Program-made: the position numbers and the translations under genes
In this document: in pieces, positions 2,419 to 29,060 of the stretch
Numbering within the stretch: position 1 is the first letter of the stretch
How the letters are laid out: each line of letters begins with the position of its first letter
The notes under the pieces: generated by a model
Databases searched by the model: none
Told to the model about the DNA's origin: nothing
The model's input: only the letters and a program-made list of their open reading frames with translations
Virus record (IMG/VR): IMGVR_UViG_3300021963_000380
Coordinates: 1-34,541 of that record
Direction: 5' to 3' (one strand)
DNA length: 34,541 nucleotides
Source: a virus

Positions 2419-2426
2419 ATAAATAC
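2419..2426 (-). promoter_or_regulatory. Candidate late promoter octamer GTATTTAT
   Basis: The minus-strand octamer GTATTTAT ends 6 bases before the start codon of the LamG-like tail gene. It belongs to a set of near-identical octamers placed before many units in this window. It resembles the T4 late promoter TATAAATA except in the two middle bases. No -35 element is evident. Only 9 bases separate it from a plus-strand copy. Confidence 0.5.
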
Positions 2427-2435
2427 TTTTATGAT

Positions 2436-2443
2436 GTATTTAT
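2436..2443 (+). promoter_or_regulatory. Candidate late promoter octamer GTATTTAT (divergent partner)
   Basis: The plus-strand octamer GTATTTAT, followed by A to give TATTTATA, ends 11 bases before the ATG at 2455. It is back to back with the minus-strand copy at 2419-2426, so the 42-base gap between the two genes holds a compact divergent promoter pair. Confidence 0.5.
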
Positions 2444-2454
2444 AGTAAGAAATT

Positions 2455-3303
2455 ATGTTAGAACTTAATAAAGAATATTTCGCCAATCCTTATTATTTCT
2501 TTTTAAAAGAAAACAGAAACACTATTGATGTGTATTTTTCTGTTCAAACTACATTGTCTGAAGCAAGAAAAAAAGATGAAAAAATTTCTGTTCCGAAATC
2601 AAAAGAAAAAGAATTAAAGTCTGTTGTTTCCAAGTTGGGAAAACAAAAAGACAAAAAATACGACTTAAATGATTTGAAAAAAATTTTATCAAAAGTTGGA
2701 AAGAATAAAGATGAGTTTACCGAAATAGTAAACTACGATGGTTCCATGAGTGATTCGTCAATTCCAATTTTGAATATGACAATGCATCCAAGAAAAACTA
2801 TGGACCAAACGGTTAGAGCAACAAGAAGTCCAAAACCACCATACACAGGGACATATCGTGTTTATTACGGTGAATCAACCGAAGATGAACCAACAATTCA
2901 AGAAGTTGATTATTCTGATGCGTTTGGTTATGAAGAAACCGAAGAATTGGACGGAAAAGAAACATTCAAGTATTTGAAAGATAAAATGGAAATGGACCCT
3001 GAAGAGGCTTATAACAGAACAAAACAATTTGGTAAAGACCCATCAGGTAAAAGAGATAAAAGTTCAAAATATTACAAAGACAAAAACTTTGTTACAAAAG
3101 CAACATTGTCTGAAATTGAAAAACAAAAAATGAGAAAGATGATTGAGGATATCATCTCTAAGAAAACCAATGACTATGAATTATCTCAAAAATCAGAGGC
3201 CAGTGAAATGTTGAAAAAGAATATTAAAGTTTTGAAAAAGATGGCCGATAAAGAGGGTTTGTCCCTTAGAGACTTAATGAATTTATTAAAAGGTGAACAG
3301 TAA
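2455..3303 (+). CDS. Unknown charged protein, first gene of a small-protein cluster
   Basis: 282 residues, very rich in Lys, Glu and Asp, not recognised. Residues ~40-85 are Lys-rich and probably helical. The middle (~95-150) is less charged and contains Pro/Tyr-rich RSPKPPYTGTYRVYYG. The C-terminal third is again Lys/Glu-rich helix ending in LSLRDLMNLLKGEQ. No membrane segment or signal peptide is seen. The ATG at 2455 lies 11 bases after a promoter-like octamer and has no Shine-Dalgarno. The end overlaps the next gene by 11 bases, so it heads a unit of five genes. A virion or head-accessory role is a guess from position beside a tail gene. Confidence 0.6.
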   Translation: MLELNKEYFANPYYFFLKENRNTIDVYFSVQTTLSEARKKDEKISVPKSKEKELKSVVSKLGKQKDKKYDLNDLKKILSKVGKNKDEFTEIVNYDGSMSDSSIPILNMTMHPRKTMDQTVRATRSPKPPYTGTYRVYYGESTEDEPTIQEVDYSDAFGYEETEELDGKETFKYLKDKMEMDPEEAYNRTKQFGKDPSGKRDKSSKYYKDKNFVTKATLSEIEKQKMRKMIEDIISKKTNDYELSQKSEASEMLKKNIKVLKKMADKEGLSLRDLMNLLKGEQ

Positions 3304-3769
3304 ATTATATGGTAAACATTTTACAATTCCTGACGAAGTTAGGAAACACTTGGTAACAATGTACCAACAACATGGCGCTGCGGGTCAAGGAGGTGATGGA
3401 TATGAAAGAAATAGACAGTTACAAAACTCACCATCATTATCATATCAACAGGCCAAAAGAATTAAAAATTTTTTTGATTCTTATAATGGAGACCAAAACG
3501 GACCCGAGTTTAATTTGAATGGGGGTGTTAAAATGAAACAATTTGTGGAGTCAATTTTATCAGGGGCAAGAAGGGGCTTAGAATTGACTGACAGAAATAA
3601 AAGAGATACTGGAATGCAAATGGACAGAGAATACACATCTAAACTTCCAAATATGAACATTTCACCATCTAAAGAACACAAAGGTGGTAGAGAAAAACAC
3701 ATGAACGAAGAAGTCGTTCAAAGCCTAAAAAGGATAAATGAAATAATGGAGAAACTATGGCAACTTTAA
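3293..3769 (+). CDS. Unknown 158-residue protein with GTG start
   Basis: The protein starts at a GTG that lies inside the last codons of the previous gene, an 11-base overlap that indicates translational coupling. It has a Gly/Gln-rich stretch near residues 26-45, a helical segment with ESILSGARRGLEL in the middle, and a Lys/Glu-rich C-terminal helix that ends in INEIMEKLWQL. I do not recognise a family. The 13-base overlap with the next gene keeps it within the same unit. The sequence INE|I near the C-terminus fits the loose (I/L)-x-Glu prohead-protease pattern, but one short match is weak evidence. A virion-associated role is inferred only from the cluster. Confidence 0.6.
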   Translation: MNSKLYGKHFTIPDEVRKHLVTMYQQHGAAGQGGDGYERNRQLQNSPSLSYQQAKRIKNFFDSYNGDQNGPEFNLNGGVKMKQFVESILSGARRGLELTDRNKRDTGMQMDREYTSKLPNMNISPSKEHKGGREKHMNEEVVQSLKRINEIMEKLWQL

Positions 3770-4047
3770 TTCCGTTGGATTACTCACAACCAGCAAACAC
3801 TTTAACCGCAATTGCTAACAATCAAAGAACTGTTAATCAAGTAAAAAATGACTATATACCTACCGCAGATGAATATTCTGTAACGGCACCTGACGCAATA
3901 GCGGACGGAGATGCTTTGGGTAGGGGTACAGGTATTTTCTTGGATGTTTATAATGAAGGTGGTGGAACAAGTGTAGATGTGGTTGAGAGAAAATTAGAAA
4001 TCAAAATAAACAAGTACAACAAGAACAAAACTTACCCTGACTTTTAA
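3757..4047 (+). CDS. Unknown 96-residue small protein
   Basis: A short protein beginning MATLIPLDYSQPANTLTAIA. It has a central Asp/Ala/Gly-rich segment (DAIADGDALGRGTG, residues ~46-59) and a basic C-terminus (KLEIKINKYNKNKTYPDF). The family is not recognised. The start overlaps the preceding gene by 13 bases and the stop codon shares its last base with the next ATG, so it sits in the middle of a translationally coupled unit. The length and the mixed turn-rich sequence would suit a small virion or adaptor subunit, but nothing decides this. Confidence 0.55.
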   Translation: MATLIPLDYSQPANTLTAIANNQRTVNQVKNDYIPTADEYSVTAPDAIADGDALGRGTGIFLDVYNEGGGTSVDVVERKLEIKINKYNKNKTYPDF

Positions 4048-4445
4048 TGAAATTAACTAACTCACTGAAAACAATCTTGTTAGAAGCCGCAAATTTGGGC
4101 GATGTCCAAAAAGCGGTAAAAAACAAAGATGTTGTAGTAATTTACTATGATGGTGATGAACCAGGTGGTAAAGGACTGCGATTAATTGAACCAGTGTGTT
4201 TAGGTTATTCTAAAGCAAACAATTTAGTGTTAAGAGCGTGGGATTATGAAGGTGCGTCACATAAAAGTTATTTGGGGGTTTTACCACTTCCAAGTTGGAG
4301 AATGTTTAGATTGGATAAAATCCTTTCATTTAAACCGACCACAGAAAAATTTGACACACCAAGACCAGGATATAATTTTACTGGTGACAAAAGTATGAAT
4401 CGTGTTATCATTAATAGTAAATTTGATAACATACCAAGAGCATAA
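4047..4445 (+). CDS. WYL-like beta-barrel protein with candidate capsid-targeting N-terminus
   Basis: 132 residues. Residues ~29-110 resemble a WYL-type domain: VVVIYYDGD, then LRLIEPVCLGYSKANNLVLR, then a strand ending in SWRMFRLDKI. WYL domains bind ligands or nucleic acid and usually sit in regulators; here there is no helix-turn-helix, only the barrel. The N-terminus MKLTNSLKTILLE|AANLG is a short helix ending in Leu-Leu-Glu|Ala at 11-14, the form of a T4 capsid-targeting peptide cut by the prohead protease. If that is right, the protein is packed in the head and may enter the host with the DNA. The ATG overlaps the previous stop by one base. The WYL call rests on pattern reading only. 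Confidence 0.55.
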   Translation: MKLTNSLKTILLEAANLGDVQKAVKNKDVVVIYYDGDEPGGKGLRLIEPVCLGYSKANNLVLRAWDYEGASHKSYLGVLPLPSWRMFRLDKILSFKPTTEKFDTPRPGYNFTGDKSMNRVIINSKFDNIPRA

Positions 4446-4447
4446 TT

Positions 4448-5041
4448 ATGATGGACGAAAATTCTTTAATGCAAAAATTAGTGATGGCCAAAAAGGTTAT
4501 GGACATTCACAACGGAACCCCAAGAGGGTCATCCAGAAATATTAATATTCCCAATGTAGAAAATTTTGATGTCCCTGACGCAAAATATAACATACCAACA
4601 GACATGTTAATGTCTGAACAAGCGGTAGTGCAAAAACAAAATAGTTCTTCAGTTCCTGCAACAAAAGATAGAATTTTAAATTCAAAACTACCTGATGAGA
4701 TAAAAAAACTCATGATTGAGCATCCAATCTCACAACCAGCAGGTATGGCAGGACCGTCTATTAGTGATGATTTGGTTAATAAAGCGTCTAGATTAATGAA
4801 AGACAATTTATTTTCTGAAGGAACTAATTCACCACAAAAACAACCCCAAAGACAAACTCAAGGACAAAATGTTCCTGGAAACACTGATTTAAAGAAATTA
4901 GTAAAAGAAGCCGTCCGTGAAATTTTGTCAGAAAGTGGATTGTTAACTGAATCAACATCCAAGTCTAATGACCAATTTTCATTCAGAGTTGGTCAACACA
5001 TTTTTGAAGGAAAAATTTCCAAAATCAAAAAACTTAAGTAA
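4448..5041 (+). CDS. Unknown protein with C-terminal (I/L)xE helix, possible head-associated protein
   Basis: 197 residues; two adjacent ATGs (4448 and 4451) could both serve. The N-terminal two thirds are polar and low in structure, with a Gln-rich run at ~129-140. The C-terminal part has a helix DLKKLVKEAVREILSESG (147-164), followed by a compact tail FSFRVGQHIFEGKISKIKKL (177-196). The helix ends in Ile-Leu-Ser-Glu and resembles the terminal helices of two other proteins here (22264-22755 and the C-terminus of 23200-24174), so a shared targeting or protease-recognition role is possible. It follows the WYL-like gene after two bases and closes the five-gene unit; 48 bases without an obvious terminator separate it from the glycosyltransferase that follows. 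Confidence 0.55.
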   Translation: MMDENSLMQKLVMAKKVMDIHNGTPRGSSRNINIPNVENFDVPDAKYNIPTDMLMSEQAVVQKQNSSSVPATKDRILNSKLPDEIKKLMIEHPISQPAGMAGPSISDDLVNKASRLMKDNLFSEGTNSPQKQPQRQTQGQNVPGNTDLKKLVKEAVREILSESGLLTESTSKSNDQFSFRVGQHIFEGKISKIKKLK

Positions 5042-15141: not shown

Positions 15142-15945
15142 ATGAAAACTTTTGATATATCAGTAATATTACCCATTAAATCTGCGTTGGCAAAAAACTT
15201 TGACGAATTTTTCCAAAATGCAGTTTCTTCTGTTTTGAATCAGAAAAGACAAATTAAAGAATTAGTAATCGTTCATACCGCTGAAGAAAATTTGGTGAAA
15301 AAACTAAACACTTTTGATTTTTCAGGTGTAACAGTAAATTTATTAGAATATAACGGAGAACCAAATTTTTGTTCTCAAGTAAATTATGGAGTTGAAAATT
15401 GTAATTCAGAATGGTTTTCAATTTTAGAGTTTGATGATGAATATTCACCTATTTGGTTTGATAATGTTGAAAAATATATGGGTCATTACAATGATGTTGA
15501 TATTTTTCTACCAATAGTTATTGACATCGACACAAAAGGTTCTTTTGCCGGTTTTACTAATGAAGCAACTTTTGCATCTAGTTTTACCACTGAAATAGGT
15601 ATATTAGATAACGAAATACTGCATTCGTATCAGAATTTTCAAATTGCCGGTATGGTTATGAAAAAAGATAAGTTTGTTGAGCTAGGTAAATTTAAACCAA
15701 CAATGAAATTAACTTTTGGTTATGAATTCTTTTTAAGAATGACATACCATTCATTAAGGATTATGACTATCCCAAAATTTGGGTACAAACACTTGAATAT
15801 GAGAGAGGGTGGAATATTTTGGAATTACAAAAATGGAAACCACGTCATGAGTGAAAATGAAGTAAGATTTTGGATTGAAACCGCCAAGAAAGAATATTAT
15901 TTTGTTGAGGACCGTGAAATAAAGTATGAAGTTCAAATGGATTAA
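15142..15945 (+). CDS. Glycosyltransferase family 2-like
   Basis: 267 residues. The GT-A fold is seen from ISVILPIKSA at residues 6-15, followed by VSSVLNQKRQIKELVIVHTA and the acidic metal motif LEFDDEYSP (~94-102). FQIAGMVMKKDKFVELGKF (~172-190) and the GYEFFLRMTYHSL segment are the acceptor-side features of the family. No membrane segments are present. Its stop codon shares one base with the ATG of the sigma factor gene (TAATG), so the late sigma factor would be co-translated with this sugar gene. Confidence 0.8.
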   Translation: MKTFDISVILPIKSALAKNFDEFFQNAVSSVLNQKRQIKELVIVHTAEENLVKKLNTFDFSGVTVNLLEYNGEPNFCSQVNYGVENCNSEWFSILEFDDEYSPIWFDNVEKYMGHYNDVDIFLPIVIDIDTKGSFAGFTNEATFASSFTTEIGILDNEILHSYQNFQIAGMVMKKDKFVELGKFKPTMKLTFGYEFFLRMTYHSLRIMTIPKFGYKHLNMREGGIFWNYKNGNHVMSENEVRFWIETAKKEYYFVEDREIKYEVQMD

Positions 15946-16688
15946 TGTCGGTATATGAAACAACCACAACAACAGTTCTTTCAAGAAAAAGGGGACGTAA
16001 AGTCACAAATCAAAACTACTTTGATGTAGAAGAAGAAATGGCTGTTAGAATGTATTTGACAGCAACAACATTTAACGAAAAGAACGAAATCTATAACCAA
16101 TACCTAAGAGGTCCGTTGGATAAGATGATTTCCTCGATTATTAGACGATACAAACTTTACAGAAAAGATATGGATTTTAAAGAAATCCATACTGATACTC
16201 ATTCTTTTTTAATGACGAAAATAGATAAGTTTAAGCCAGCTAAAGAAAAGAAGGCTTATTCTTATTTTGGAACAATCTGTAAAAATTATTTAATGGGTCA
16301 AATAATTAAAGACCAAAAAGATATGAATCGTAAAGTTTCCTACGAAGATATATCTTCCAATTTAGAAAATAGACCCGACATGGTTTATTATTTGGAGTAC
16401 GAAATCGTTGATGCCCAAGACATAATATCTGAATTTTTGGAAGAGTTAAAATCAATGATTGATGGGGACGATTTGAGTGATAACGAAAAAAAATTAGGTT
16501 TGGCTTTACAAGAACTATTTGAAAATTACAAAGAAATTTTTTTGGGAAATGAAAATAATAAGTTTAACAAAAATGTCATATTATTATCGTTAAGAGAGAT
16601 GACTAATTTGTCAACAAAGGAAATTAGAAGTGCAATTAAAAAATATAAAAAACTTTATTATGTAGTACTTAATGGTCTTTTGGAATAA
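15945..16688 (+). CDS. gp55: gp55-like late transcription sigma factor
   Basis: 247 residues. Residues ~84-127, with DTHSFLMTKIDKFKPAK, KKAYSYFGTICKNYLMGQII and a basic end, match the sigma-70 region 2-like part of T4 gp55, which binds host RNA polymerase and recognises the late -10 element. The C-terminal half is mostly helical and Lys/Glu-rich. In T4, gp55 works with a sliding clamp and gp33; neither is visible here. The gene overlaps the upstream glycosyltransferase by one base. A promoter-like octamer 16 bases after its stop begins the virion block that it probably switches on. Confidence 0.8.
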   Translation: MSVYETTTTTVLSRKRGRKVTNQNYFDVEEEMAVRMYLTATTFNEKNEIYNQYLRGPLDKMISSIIRRYKLYRKDMDFKEIHTDTHSFLMTKIDKFKPAKEKKAYSYFGTICKNYLMGQIIKDQKDMNRKVSYEDISSNLENRPDMVYYLEYEIVDAQDIISEFLEELKSMIDGDDLSDNEKKLGLALQELFENYKEIFLGNENNKFNKNVILLSLREMTNLSTKEIRSAIKKYKKLYYVVLNGLLE

Positions 16689-22796: not shown

Positions 22797-23207
22797 ATGG
22801 TACAAAAATTCCAACACAAGTTAAAACGTTTTGTTCAAAAACAAGGTATAAAAATTCAAAAAATTACCGACCCTACTCGATTGGTGAAAAGTCAACACGA
22901 GAGAGAGTGTGTGGATATTTGTAAAAAATTAATACCTTTAAAAGAAACAAAACTTCTCATTACTCCGTTGTCGCCCAAAAAATACATTAGAAATGATGAA
23001 TTGGATATTTATGTAATTATTGAAGGTAGGCACGTGAACATAATTAATCACGTATATAGTTACTCTGTAGTAATTGAAGGTAAAGGGATGGAAACAATTA
23101 TGAACATGTTTAATAATGAATTAGAATCTCGTAGGGAACAATTTGAATCTGAAATAACTTCAAATATTAAACATTCATTAAAAACTATATCAAACAATAT
23201 TAAGTAG
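22797..23207 (+). CDS. Unknown 136-residue protein
   Basis: A basic N-terminus (MVQKFQHKLKRFVQKQGIKI), a middle beta-like part (LDIYVIIEGRHVNIINHVYS, ~79-98) and a helical C-terminus. No family is recognised. The ATG follows a 41-base gap that contains GGAG (~22 bases before the ATG, too far to act as a normal Shine-Dalgarno) and no octamer. The C-terminus overlaps the end of the minus-strand gene 23200-24174 by 8 bases, tail to tail, with no terminator between them. It is the last gene of the plus-strand region. Confidence 0.55.
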   Translation: MVQKFQHKLKRFVQKQGIKIQKITDPTRLVKSQHERECVDICKKLIPLKETKLLITPLSPKKYIRNDELDIYVIIEGRHVNIINHVYSYSVVIEGKGMETIMNMFNNELESRREQFESEITSNIKHSLKTISNNIK

Positions 23208-24174
23208 ACTTATGTTCTCTTAATACTGTTTTAATTAACTCTCTAAGAGATTCGTTTTTTGTTTTGTATGATGTCATAACAGGTTTTTGACCTTTTCCTG
23301 TTTGAGTATCTTTTTTTTCCGCTCTTCTTTTTTGAGCACAAGCTGCCTTCTTTTGTGAATCACTCATTTTAGATGCAACACCTGCGGCTCTACACTTTGG
23401 GTAACCTTTAGGGTCTGCATCTGGTCTACCACATGGTGGGTGTCCACCACCCTCTTTTTTTCTACATATATTTACCCAAGGACCTTTTGGTTGTTTAGTA
23501 CCTTTAGGTTTTTTTTTAGTTCCAAACCAAACACCCAAATCTTCCTTTAAAGTATGAACATCATGTGTTGGTATTTTATGTGAACCATCTTTACCCTTTT
23601 CCCAAACACCAACAACTGTTTCAATATTATTTTTCATAGTTTTTTGTTTCTTTTTTTTATTTGATTCATGTGTCGACAATTTTTCATAAGGAGACAATTG
23701 ACTTCTCAACCATTTTTTTAAACCTAACTCAACAGGACCTGTGTAAGGTCCGGATGTTAAATTAGTACTTGTTGCCTCTGAAATTTTTTCGTTTTTATAA
23801 ATTGATTCGCTCTCTTTTTTTGGTAAATTTGCCTTTTTGTAAACGGACTTTGGTGTTCCTGCAAGTGGATTTCCCATAGGACTATAACCATTAAACGGAT
23901 TACCATCTTCATCATTTTGACTAAAAAACTTTTCAGCGGTTTTAGATTGTTTTTCGGCTTTTTTTTCTATTTTGGAAATTTCTTCTTTTGTGTAATCGTC
24001 CATATTTCCGTCATAACTATCGTAAGCCAATTGTGCACTCAAATAATCTGAAACTGGTATTGTATACGCACCCATGTTAGAGTTTTTCCAAATTTTTGCA
24101 GCCATTGTTATTGGATTTTTGTAATTACCACTATTAGATGCGGATGTTACCTCATTAATTGACTTATTTTTCAT
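23200..24174 (-). CDS. Candidate internal head protein with repeated (I)xE modules and basic Cys-containing C-terminus
   Basis: 324 residues. The N-terminus MKNKSINE|VTSASNSG ends its basic leader in Ile-Asn-Glu|Val (6-9), the same form as the gp23 cleavage site. A related segment recurs at 131-155: ISEATSTNLTSGPYTGPVEL then GLKKW, aligned to 6-29 with a one-residue gap, so the protein is internally duplicated. Residues ~231-290 are basic and Cys-rich: GPWVNICRKKEGGGHPPCGR (231-250) and GYPKCRAAG (257-265), then a Lys/Ala helix. The C-terminus NESLRELIKTVLREH ends in Leu-Arg-Glu. Together this suggests a DNA-binding protein packed in the head and processed by gp21. It lies downstream of gp23, divergent from a small gene. 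Confidence 0.6.
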   Translation of the reverse strand: MKNKSINEVTSASNSGNYKNPITMAAKIWKNSNMGAYTIPVSDYLSAQLAYDSYDGNMDDYTKEEISKIEKKAEKQSKTAEKFFSQNDEDGNPFNGYSPMGNPLAGTPKSVYKKANLPKKESESIYKNEKISEATSTNLTSGPYTGPVELGLKKWLRSQLSPYEKLSTHESNKKKKQKTMKNNIETVVGVWEKGKDGSHKIPTHDVHTLKEDLGVWFGTKKKPKGTKQPKGPWVNICRKKEGGGHPPCGRPDADPKGYPKCRAAGVASKMSDSQKKAACAQKRRAEKKDTQTGKGQKPVMTSYKTKNESLRELIKTVLREHKST

Positions 24175-24488: not shown

Positions 24489-26372
24489 TTATCTCAATTC
24501 TCTCAAGTCGAATGTTCTTACACCATCAACTGTGATTCTACCATAGAAACGGTTGTTAACCATTTTCTTAGCGTATCTTGTCATGATACCCTTGATAGGT
24601 GTGAAGTTGAATGGGTTGTACATTGTTGGAGTTAATTGTAGAGGTACATATGGTGCGTAGATGTAACCTGTGTCTAACAAAGACGTTCCTTTGTGACCCA
24701 ACAATACTGTGTTAGCTGGGAAGTAAGGGTCTCTGTAAACTTGGTATCTACCTGACAAAGTACCTACTCTCTCAATACCCATGTTGTATTGGTCTTGGTC
24801 AGGAGCCGCGTTTGATACGTGGAAGTACTCCAAGTCATCAAAGATTGCACTGATTTCAGATGATACAACAATCCAGTTAGCTCCACCTCTCAAAGTAGAT
24901 TTGTGAATCTGTGCTGAGATTTGGTTGATTGCCGTAATCAAAGTTTGGTTCCAGTCTTTTTGTGTGTATGATGTAGTTTGAGAAAGTCTCTTCCATCCGT
25001 TGTAATCCCATCTCAAGTTCCAAGCCGCACCTTTTCTCAAATCTCTCAAGATTTCTCTATCAATTTCTGCTGCGATTTGTTCTGACAATAAAGCTGTTAA
25101 TTCAGCTTCAGCGTCAATGTTATGGAATGCCGCAACGTCCTGTGCTAATTCAGGAGACCACTGTGCTCTCAATTTTCTTTCAGTTACAGAAACTGTTACA
25201 GATTCCAAATCAAAAGAAACTTCACCAATTTTATCTTCAAATTCCAATTCTTCATATCTTCTGAAGATACCGAAGAATGCTTCAGCACTTTCTAATCCAT
25301 CACCACCTGTAGTATATCCTGAATAACCGTCCAAACTGTTAGTTGCACAATCAATACATACTGGTTGTTGTAAATCAACTTCTAAGATAATTTCTCCGTC
25401 AGTATTACAAGTGTTGTAGTAAGAACCACCGTTACCTGTTGAAGGCCAAACTGTTTGTGTGTTTGAACCGTAGTTAACAATGCCTTTACCGTAAATTTGA
25501 GTTACAACTCTGAACAACAATGGTTGAGAAACACCTGGTAAATCACTCATAGTCAAACCTGACAAAGCTCCAGTACCTGATGCACCTGCTGATGCCAAAG
25601 TTCTGATTTGTAAGTCAGACAAGAATTCTTCAGTGTCCATTTCGTTACCATTTGGTCCAATAAGTTTACCAGCTCCGCTATTAGCGAAACCTTTCATCTT
25701 GATGATTACTTTTCTGTATTCAGTGTTTGCACTCAATCCCCAGTTTACTAAAGTACTACCAACCCATCTTTGAACATAAGTTGTTGCTGTGATAGCTGAC
25801 CATCTTCCTTTAGAATAATCAAATAAACCTGGAGGGTCTAATTGTGCTTCATTACCTTCATAGAACAAATCGTAAAGATTCTTTCTGTAGATTGGGTTGT
25901 AGTCACCTGAACCTGCGTTTACTTGAGTATAACCAAGATTTGGGTCACCTGGGTAGTTTCCTGGAGAACCTACAGGTGCGTAGTGCTGACCTGAGTAATC
26001 ACCATAACCTGCGTCGTTCAATGAACCACCAGAATAACCTTGAATTTTAGGTACAAAGTAGAACAATTTACCGATAGGTAAGTTCATAGCTTGTACAGAT
26101 ACGATGTCGTTAGCTAACAATTTAGAGAATACTCTTCTCACGATTGGGAATACAACCGTTTCGAATGAACCTGAGTCAGTCGTAGAAGCTGCCTCGTTGA
26201 TTAAGTGAGACGCTTGGTTCTCATACAACTGTGCAACGTTCTCCTTCAAGTGACCTTTAAGTCCTTCTAAGAAACCTAGTTTATCCCATTTGTTAATAGT
26301 GTCTTCTTTGATAACTTTAAGGTGCTTAAGACCAATGTTACCTACTAGACCTGATTCTAATAATGCTCCCAT
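24489..26372 (-). CDS. gp23: Major capsid protein, gp23-like
   Basis: 627 residues, somewhat longer than T4 gp23 (521). The segment FPIVRRVFSKLLANDIVSVQ (75-94) followed by AMNLPIGKLFYFVPK matches the start of the mature gp23 core (HK97 fold). Residues 1-60 are a helical propeptide, and Ile58-Asn-Glu60|Ala61 is a clear prohead-protease site, close to Glu65 in T4. The C-terminal part (GTLSGRYQVYRDPYFPA and KGIMTRYAKKMVNNRFYGRI) is also typical. It forms the hexamers of the head shell. Codon use seems more regular and less AT-biased than in the neighbours, as usual for a highly expressed gene. The 34-base leader is A-rich, with no Shine-Dalgarno. It lies downstream of the scaffold and ends at the terminator. 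Confidence 0.95.
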   Translation of the reverse strand: MGALLESGLVGNIGLKHLKVIKEDTINKWDKLGFLEGLKGHLKENVAQLYENQASHLINEAASTTDSGSFETVVFPIVRRVFSKLLANDIVSVQAMNLPIGKLFYFVPKIQGYSGGSLNDAGYGDYSGQHYAPVGSPGNYPGDPNLGYTQVNAGSGDYNPIYRKNLYDLFYEGNEAQLDPPGLFDYSKGRWSAITATTYVQRWVGSTLVNWGLSANTEYRKVIIKMKGFANSGAGKLIGPNGNEMDTEEFLSDLQIRTLASAGASGTGALSGLTMSDLPGVSQPLLFRVVTQIYGKGIVNYGSNTQTVWPSTGNGGSYYNTCNTDGEIILEVDLQQPVCIDCATNSLDGYSGYTTGGDGLESAEAFFGIFRRYEELEFEDKIGEVSFDLESVTVSVTERKLRAQWSPELAQDVAAFHNIDAEAELTALLSEQIAAEIDREILRDLRKGAAWNLRWDYNGWKRLSQTTSYTQKDWNQTLITAINQISAQIHKSTLRGGANWIVVSSEISAIFDDLEYFHVSNAAPDQDQYNMGIERVGTLSGRYQVYRDPYFPANTVLLGHKGTSLLDTGYIYAPYVPLQLTPTMYNPFNFTPIKGIMTRYAKKMVNNRFYGRITVDGVRTFDLRELR

Positions 26373-28349: not shown

Positions 28350-29060
28350 TTACTTAGTTAAATAATCGGACAATTTCTTCATTAAGTCAACCGATTTATC
28401 AATTGACCCTTGAGATTTTCTTTGAGCTTCTTCTTCCAAGTTTTCCTCAAAGTTTTTTCTTTCAGATGGGTCGGTGAATAAATATGCACCAGGTGTTGAT
28501 GGTGACGACACCAAGTCAAAACAAATTAATTCAAAATCGTCTTGTACTTCATTTCTATCCCCAACCTTTTTTAAGGAACCCACTCCACGAGAAGATATAC
28601 CTAAAGTAACCCCTTGTCTTAGTAAGTTAGCCGCTTGGTCTCCTTTTGTAGAAACAATACCTCTTTCATGAAAACCAGGTGAAGTTAATAATTTTAATTT
28701 ACCCATTAAAATAATTCCGTCCCACCAAACATCCGTGATTATGTGAGACACACGGTCCAAATCAATTAATGATGACTCAGGGTGATTTAATTCAGAAAGA
28801 GATGTTCCTTTTTGAATCATTTTTTTATAGTTGTCTGATTCTCTTTTTAAAATTCTTTCAGGATAAATTCTTCCGTTTCTATTTGGTGTATTATATTTTT
28901 GTAATACGGCATAAAACTCAAACGGCTTTGAATAGTCCAACATGTCTTTTTTCATTTGTTCCATCAAATGAAGATTGCTCTTTTCGTTTGGGGATAAGTA
29001 CCCCGCATCGTATTCAATCAATATACCACGTCCTGTATCATTAGGTCCTAATATCTTCAT
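28350..29060 (-). CDS. gp21: Prohead core protease, gp21-like
   Basis: 236 residues. YNTPNRNGRIYPERIL (56-71) is the substrate-binding strand region of T4-type prohead proteases. LNHPESS (91-97) holds the catalytic His93, and GVTLGISSRGVGS (150-162) holds the catalytic Ser (156 or 157). FDLVSSPSTPGA (181-192) follows as in the family. The enzyme is a serine protease with herpesvirus-assemblin-like fold that matures gp23, gp22 and other core proteins after (L/I)-x-Glu. The C-terminal ~40 residues are polar and likely removed by self-cleavage. A promoter octamer lies 11 bases before the ATG. Confidence 0.92.
   Translation of the reverse strand: MKILGPNDTGRGILIEYDAGYLSPNEKSNLHLMEQMKKDMLDYSKPFEFYAVLQKYNTPNRNGRIYPERILKRESDNYKKMIQKGTSLSELNHPESSLIDLDRVSHIITDVWWDGIILMGKLKLLTSPGFHERGIVSTKGDQAANLLRQGVTLGISSRGVGSLKKVGDRNEVQDDFELICFDLVSSPSTPGAYLFTDPSERKNFEENLEEEAQRKSQGSIDKSVDLMKKLSDYLTK

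Follow-up and report, generated by a model that had tools for sequence, protein, structure and literature searches.

A core stand-alone WYL-domain protein with a candidate capsid-targeting leader in large uncultured phages

WYL domains are the sensors of several regulators of phage defence and of the DNA-damage response. The window, that is, the whole 34,541-nucleotide stretch of viral DNA that was analysed, carries on its plus strand, at positions 4047-4445, an open reading frame with an ATG start whose 132-aa product includes the motifs IYYDGD, LRLIEPVCLGYSKANN and WRMFRLDKI. The first-pass annotation described this product as a WYL-like barrel with no DNA-binding domain, placed after a 13-residue leader that might direct it to the phage head. 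The features of the locus are listed below (an arrow marks a candidate cut or a junction between leader and body).

2419-2425, minus strand: divergent TATTTAT ahead of the tail-fibre-like gene 133-2412, found by motif search
2437-2443, plus strand: TATTTAT, late-promoter-like, ahead of the operon to which the WYL gene belongs; present upstream of the orthologue of the gene at 2455 in 22 of 23 relatives
2455-3303, plus strand: first operon gene, syntenic with the WYL gene in 77 of 80 loci
3293-3769, plus strand: second operon gene, syntenic in 80 of 80 loci
3757-4047, plus strand: third operon gene, 96 aa, with its stop codon overlapping the start of the WYL gene (TAATG); synteny kept in 80 of 80 loci
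4047-4445, plus strand: stand-alone WYL-domain protein (open reading frame, Pfam and PADLOC WYL matches, fold search), a single-copy core gene of the lineage
4047-4085, plus strand: leader MKLTNSLKTILLE, 13 residues ending in LxE, a candidate capsid-targeting propeptide (conservation among homologues, leader sharing)
4086-4349, plus strand: WYL/Sm-like barrel, residues 14-101 (profile matches, VIA-align to BrxR, conservation table)
4362-4424, plus strand: C-terminal element PRPxYNxxGDKSMxxVIINxxF, residues 106-126, in the place of a WCX domain (alignments)
4448-5041, plus strand: gene directly 3' of the WYL gene, 197 aa, with a leader-like helix, LKKLVKEAVREILSE↓S, inside the protein; synteny kept in 80 of 80 loci

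Both divergent TATTTAT boxes lie in the 42-nt intergenic stretch 2413-2454, a layout that is kept in relatives. The product of 4448-5041 has a conserved terminal element, F.FrVGxHiFEGKxTKiKK, and the leader-like helix before it ends in LSE↓S or LxE↓N.

The WYL gene, its fold and its distribution

The window protein matches the Pfam model PF13280 (WYL) with E=2.7e-4 and 21.3 bits, just below the cut-off of 21.8, and the same model is matched by 48 of 48 aligned relatives (best E=3.8e-6); among the PADLOC WYL models, the best match is that of CAS associated_signaling WYL (E=8.6e-8). An AlphaFold2 model built from a 52-sequence alignment (pLDDT 78) contains an Sm-like barrel plus an N-terminal helix. 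When this model was compared with the PDB using Foldseek, the first 21 rows were all WYL regulators, the best matches being PafBC, DriD, CapW and BrxR. VIA-align gave a Z of 10.8 to PafBC and of 10.5 to BrxR (1.8 A over 80 residues, spanning residues 15-109), and placed Hfq and Sm proteins next (Z 6-7), as expected for such a fold. By sequence, profile search included, the protein has no match in the PDB. Pfam, PADLOC and the fold search thus agree on the WYL-like barrel that had been proposed, and structure prediction, which the first-pass annotation named as a check, recovered a WYL fold and not an unrelated one. The absence of a DNA-binding domain was also borne out: leader, barrel and short C-terminal element make up the 132 aa, which leave no room for one, and neither an HTH nor a WCX domain was found in the protein. 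A likeness to the DNA end protector gp2 was weak in a viral fold search (E 0.11-0.23, TM <0.4) and was rejected.

A profile scan of IMG/VR found 526 stretches that encode the WYL protein, in more than 500 viral contigs, and the gene is single-copy in 9 of 9 large related contigs of 261-322 kb. The gene order is identical in all 80 loci examined: two genes, the 96-aa gene, the WYL gene, the 197-aa gene and a glycosyltransferase-like gene. Between the window and the related genomes G002, G005 and G007, identity is 66-71% for the WYL protein and 68-75% for terminase, portal and protease, which indicates that the WYL protein evolves as slowly as these three. Distant relatives, 22-30% identical, were found in 600-735 kb phages and in IMG/VR contigs; they have in common the barrel and the YN...F end of the C-terminal element, which the alignments show to be largely retained in the 600-735 kb phages, and they are without the short leader and the neighbours of the WYL locus. 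In a synteny search no homologues of the adjacent operon genes were seen around these leader-less megaphage relatives. The phage collection held no cultured relatives, its matches being uncultured 634-735 kb records only. Two candidate homologues were discarded: one in a Thorarchaeota MAG (L165), considered as a host homologue, was a chance alignment in a genome without a PF13280 match, and in an apparent paralogue, a tail protein of G005 with 751 aa (profile E=1.4e-11), the match was spread over BspA-type FNQPLSGWNVSNVTNM repeats.

The barrel keeps the basic positions R45, R63, R85, R88 and K91 (conservation table), and the predicted mature form (residues 14-132, 119 residues) has a net charge of +5. 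Binding of ssDNA by PafB requires R181, R204, R208, R211, R214 and Y196 (PMC11804915). Mapped by motif and not by solved structure, R88 and K91 correspond to PafB R211 and R214 (the RxxR of the beta4/beta5 loop) and R85 to R208, and R45 probably matches R181; E. coli YfjR was dropped as a bridge for this mapping because it is too divergent. Position 88 is R or K, position 91 is K in near relatives and R or N in megaphages, and D90 is near invariant among the WYL relatives. The position of the WYL tyrosine (PafB Y196) is occupied by V in 37 of 40 near relatives and by L in 12 of 12 far ones. This tyrosine is a hallmark at the sequence level and may be absent from many divergent WYL proteins; its loss weakens the case for PafB-like ligand binding and leaves the fold assignment unaffected.

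Leaders on unrelated proteins and the TATTTAT motif

E13 and L or I at position 11 are present in 48 of 48 aligned relatives, and [LI]xE occupies residues 11-13 in 72 of 72 distinct homologues, a set for which M[KR]L was required and LxE was not. The residue after E13 is V or I in 62 of the 72 and A, as in the window, in 6. The Pfam and PADLOC WYL matches start at residues 13-16 of the window protein; therefore, the leader is an addition ahead of the domain. The 13-residue leader is thus conserved as had been noted from the window, and of the LLE↓A pattern read at its end, E13 and the L or I at position 11 stand, whereas A after the E is a minority form.

A matrix made from the WYL leader found 7 unrelated proteins scoring at least 10 bits, against 0.18-0.21 expected (five sequence sets), all of them with E at position 13. 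Five leader classes, written as regular expressions after the inspection of two genomes and then applied to two more, stand at the start of 109 ORFs in four relatives and 2 in the window. After shuffling, 1.6 matches are expected in all, 1.5 of these from class C, to which the WYL leader belongs.

Class A: MKKxxxLTESDLxxIVxRVxxE
Class B: MNLQENIxRIxxMM
Class C: MxLxxSIKxILxE
Class D: MKIIITESQYxxLxE
Class E: xxFIITEEEKxxI

Each 270-310 kb genome has about 20-30 ORFs with one of the five leaders, on unrelated bodies and mostly after TATTTAT (loci L231-L244 in G001, L245-L260 in G005, L261-L276 in G002 and L277-L290 in G007), and these ORFs look like a large set of head-packaged proteins. The bodies include a KptA/Tpt1-type ADP-ribosyltransferase fold, a two-region sigma factor and a kinase-like ATPase. 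The ADP-ribosyltransferase fold (VIA Z 10.7) belongs to a 142-aa protein encoded at L237:15746-16174 and L296:1501-1926, which has no Pfam or NCBIfam match. At L314:1501-1794, a different protein, with a HEIAH metalloprotease-like motif, carries a leader, MNLQETIRRILREET, identical to that of the ADP-ribosyltransferase-fold protein. At L238:18640-19206 a class D leader (MKIIIKESQLPLLLE) precedes a protein with sigma-70 regions 2 and 4 (E about 5e-11), possibly a head-packaged sigma factor.

Further features of the window bear on the head and on late expression.

15945-16688, plus strand: late sigma factor-like protein, candidate reader of TATTTAT (phrog_234, E=1.6e-3)
23200-24174, minus strand: head-region gene; its orthologues differ in their leaders, the junction being [IL]xE↓[AVI]
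24489-26372, minus strand: major capsid protein, gp23-type (sequence, and position in a T4-like head gene order)
28350-29060, minus strand: prohead protease, T4 gp21 family (PF03420, E=7.4e-23)

In the capsid protein, LINE↓A at 60/61 is conserved and is a candidate site of cleavage, with the cut after residue 60. Orthologous proteins were found to carry different leaders with the junction exactly after E. In one set these are MKDLIKKLLRE↓AVGVP, MKIKIKESQYTKLNE↓AVGVP and MKKNLIITENQLEIIVNNLLLNE↓AVGVP, with LRE↓AVGVP and LNE↓AVGVP among the swap sites; for the gene at 23200 they are MLNDIIKKILRE↓ATSD, MNKNNKIQIKE↓ATSD, MKNNKIHISE↓ATST and MKNKSINE↓VTSA, the junctions including LRE↓ATSD, IKE↓ATSD and ISE↓ATST. 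Swaps after E are what would be predicted for a separable targeting peptide that a protease removes.

TATTTAT lies at most 50 nt upstream of 10 of the 40 window genes, against 0.5 expected; terminase, protease, scaffold and the first gene of the WYL operon are among them. The motif, found in the window, was tested elsewhere on genes with at least 30 nt upstream, where it precedes 47 of 50 leader genes and 216 of 665 others (p=1.4e-18, odds ratio 32.6), and the association is significant in each of four genomes alone. Of six AT-rich control heptamers, four had no significant association and two, TATATTT and TTTTATT, a weak one (odds ratios 2.4-2.7). The T4-style TATAAATA was rejected as the late motif of the window, where it occurs 7 times against 5.1 expected and so not above chance, TATTTAT being the enriched form. 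Late promoters have TATAAATA in T4 and CTAAATA in Aeh1 (PMC1524935); given that these boxes differ, it is plausible that TATTTAT is a variant late box. In one of the four genomes, G001 (268 kb), the genes for terminase, portal, protease, scaffold and capsid are present twice, in divergent versions (28-47% identity) at L232 (about 25-37 kb) and L242 (about 228-238 kb). This contig may be chimeric, joining two phages, or the phage may have two head modules; the leader and TATTTAT statistics hold in the other three genomes without G001.

Leader sharing, the swaps at E and the motif upstream of head genes together support the earlier proposal of a head-targeting leader. The many unrelated proteins that share this leader are probably packaged in the head, from which they may pass into the host together with the viral DNA.

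Possible roles of the WYL protein

T4 brings proteins to the prohead core by means of propeptides 10-19 residues long, which gp21 removes (PMC9026906). The N-terminus of T4 IPIII, MKTYQEFIAE↓A (T4 record), follows the same pattern as the WYL leader. On balance we favour, with slightly better than even confidence, a protein that is made late and packaged into the head, with a WYL/Sm barrel that probably binds nucleic acid and a T4-like capsid-targeting propeptide from which the prohead protease would free it. According to this explanation, the first 13 residues would dock the protein on the prohead core, as T4 internal-protein propeptides do, the gp21-family protease would cut after the LxE at E13, and the 119-residue barrel would be set free inside the head, where it could bind genome ends, nicks or ssDNA; after ejection, it could bind nucleic acid in the host cell. 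We infer that the protein is packaged, cleaved, able to bind nucleic acid and ejected into the host. Being small and basic, and with most of the ssDNA positions of PafB retained, the mature barrel is most likely a nucleic-acid binder, and direct binding is the more economical idea; judged from these residues such binding is likely, not certain, and its mode would necessarily be unlike that of PafB. Some findings go against this explanation. The T4 cut sites of IPIII and gp24 have A or S after the cut, whereas V or I predominates at P1' of the WYL family; in addition, the tyrosine required in PafB, Y196, is V or L. The relatives in the 600-735 kb phages are without the short leader and the neighbours, so the barrel can work without this leader.

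A different and rather unlikely explanation is that the leader is never cut off and serves as a docking helix, with the WYL protein as a permanent part of the particle or of the assembly machinery (for example core, neck or inner surface of the capsid) and its barrel in contact with other proteins, a frequent role of SH3 and Sm folds. Conservation at the level of core morphogenesis proteins, strict synteny beside a tail-fibre-like gene, the motif that the WYL operon shares with head genes and the V or I at P1', unlike T4 sites, would all suit such a part; however, LxE is invariant exactly at the domain edge, proteins other than building blocks, such as a sigma factor and one with an ADP-ribosyltransferase fold, also bear leaders of this kind, and the basic ligand positions are retained.

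The claim of the first-pass annotation that the barrel blocks a host sensor or defence regulator gained no direct support. In the form of an injected decoy or sponge, the barrel would bind the ssDNA or oligonucleotide that activates host regulators of the CapW, BrxR or PafBC/DriD type, or pair with these regulators, and so delay the defence or DNA-damage response. The fold is that of the CapW and BrxR sensor domains, the basic groove is retained, the leader type is common to likely injected proteins, and T4 IPI offers a precedent (PMC3012670). The internal anti-restriction proteins of T-even phages form a highly diverse set (PMC3012670), whereas the WYL protein evolves slowly, is present in every related locus examined and is without the WCX part; constant presence and slow change are more in keeping with a core role than with the blocking of a host sensor, and we consider the decoy improbable. 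Least probable is a protein that stays out of the head and acts late inside the cell, in nucleic-acid binding or regulation, with the leader as an amphipathic helix for another location or complex; this would suit the leader-less megaphage relatives and a cargo-like status that is deduced and not observed, but the leader swaps at LxE and the LxE↓A of the capsid protein point to the prohead protease.

Returning to the head-packaged protein, a broader proposal is more tentative, at somewhat less than even confidence: phages of 260-322 kb may load into their heads a large tagged protein set (at least five leader families, about 20-30 proteins per genome, mostly expressed from the late-promoter motif of the capsid genes), of which the WYL protein would be a constant core member that handles, at DNA entry, nucleic acid or a nucleic-acid signal sensed by host WYL proteins. 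A core, apparently head-targeted WYL protein in very common uncultured giant phages would tie sensor folds to virion cargo, and the leader signature combined with TATTTAT provides a simple, testable rule for finding, from sequence, candidate head-packaged proteins in uncultured phages.

Comparison with known systems

The WYL regulators PafBC, DriD, CapW and BrxR have the fold in common with the phage protein (Z up to 10.8), and also the RxxR/K loop (FRLDKI), the R45, R85 and R88 positions and the nucleic-acid-binding groove; in contrast, the phage-encoded protein has no HTH and no WCX, has lost the tyrosine and bears the YNxxGDKSM C-terminal element. CRISPR-associated WYL accessory proteins (PADLOC) give the best profile match (E=8.6e-8), but no CRISPR locus was seen near the phage gene, and its context is not that of a defence gene.

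The T4 internal proteins IPI, IPII and IPIII and the head protein Alt likewise have a short N-terminal propeptide in common, MK.Y...IxE↓A in IPIII compared with the candidate propeptide MKLYNTLKSLILE in the WYL family. A gp21-family protease is also encoded in the window genome, the head-gene context is alike and would likewise be late, and the cargo bodies of T4 are mutually unrelated, as are those of the leader-bearing proteins; the ADP-ribosyltransferase fold among the latter recalls Alt, which is cut by gp21. The WYL leader differs in having 13 residues instead of the 10 of IPIII and usually V or I at P1', and the WYL body, for which packaging and cleavage are predicted, is a highly conserved barrel and not a fast-changing inhibitor.

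In SPN3US, the phiKZ-type ejection proteins gp53 and gp54 have an identical 15-residue N-terminus (PMC5694885). The likeness lies in a shared N-terminal propeptide with an xxE-type end, on diverged proteins in the head of a giant phage. SPN3US differs in its phage lineage, its S80 protease family and its A/SxE motif; there, the N-terminus is shared by two diverged paralogues, whereas leaders of the WYL type are found on unrelated bodies.
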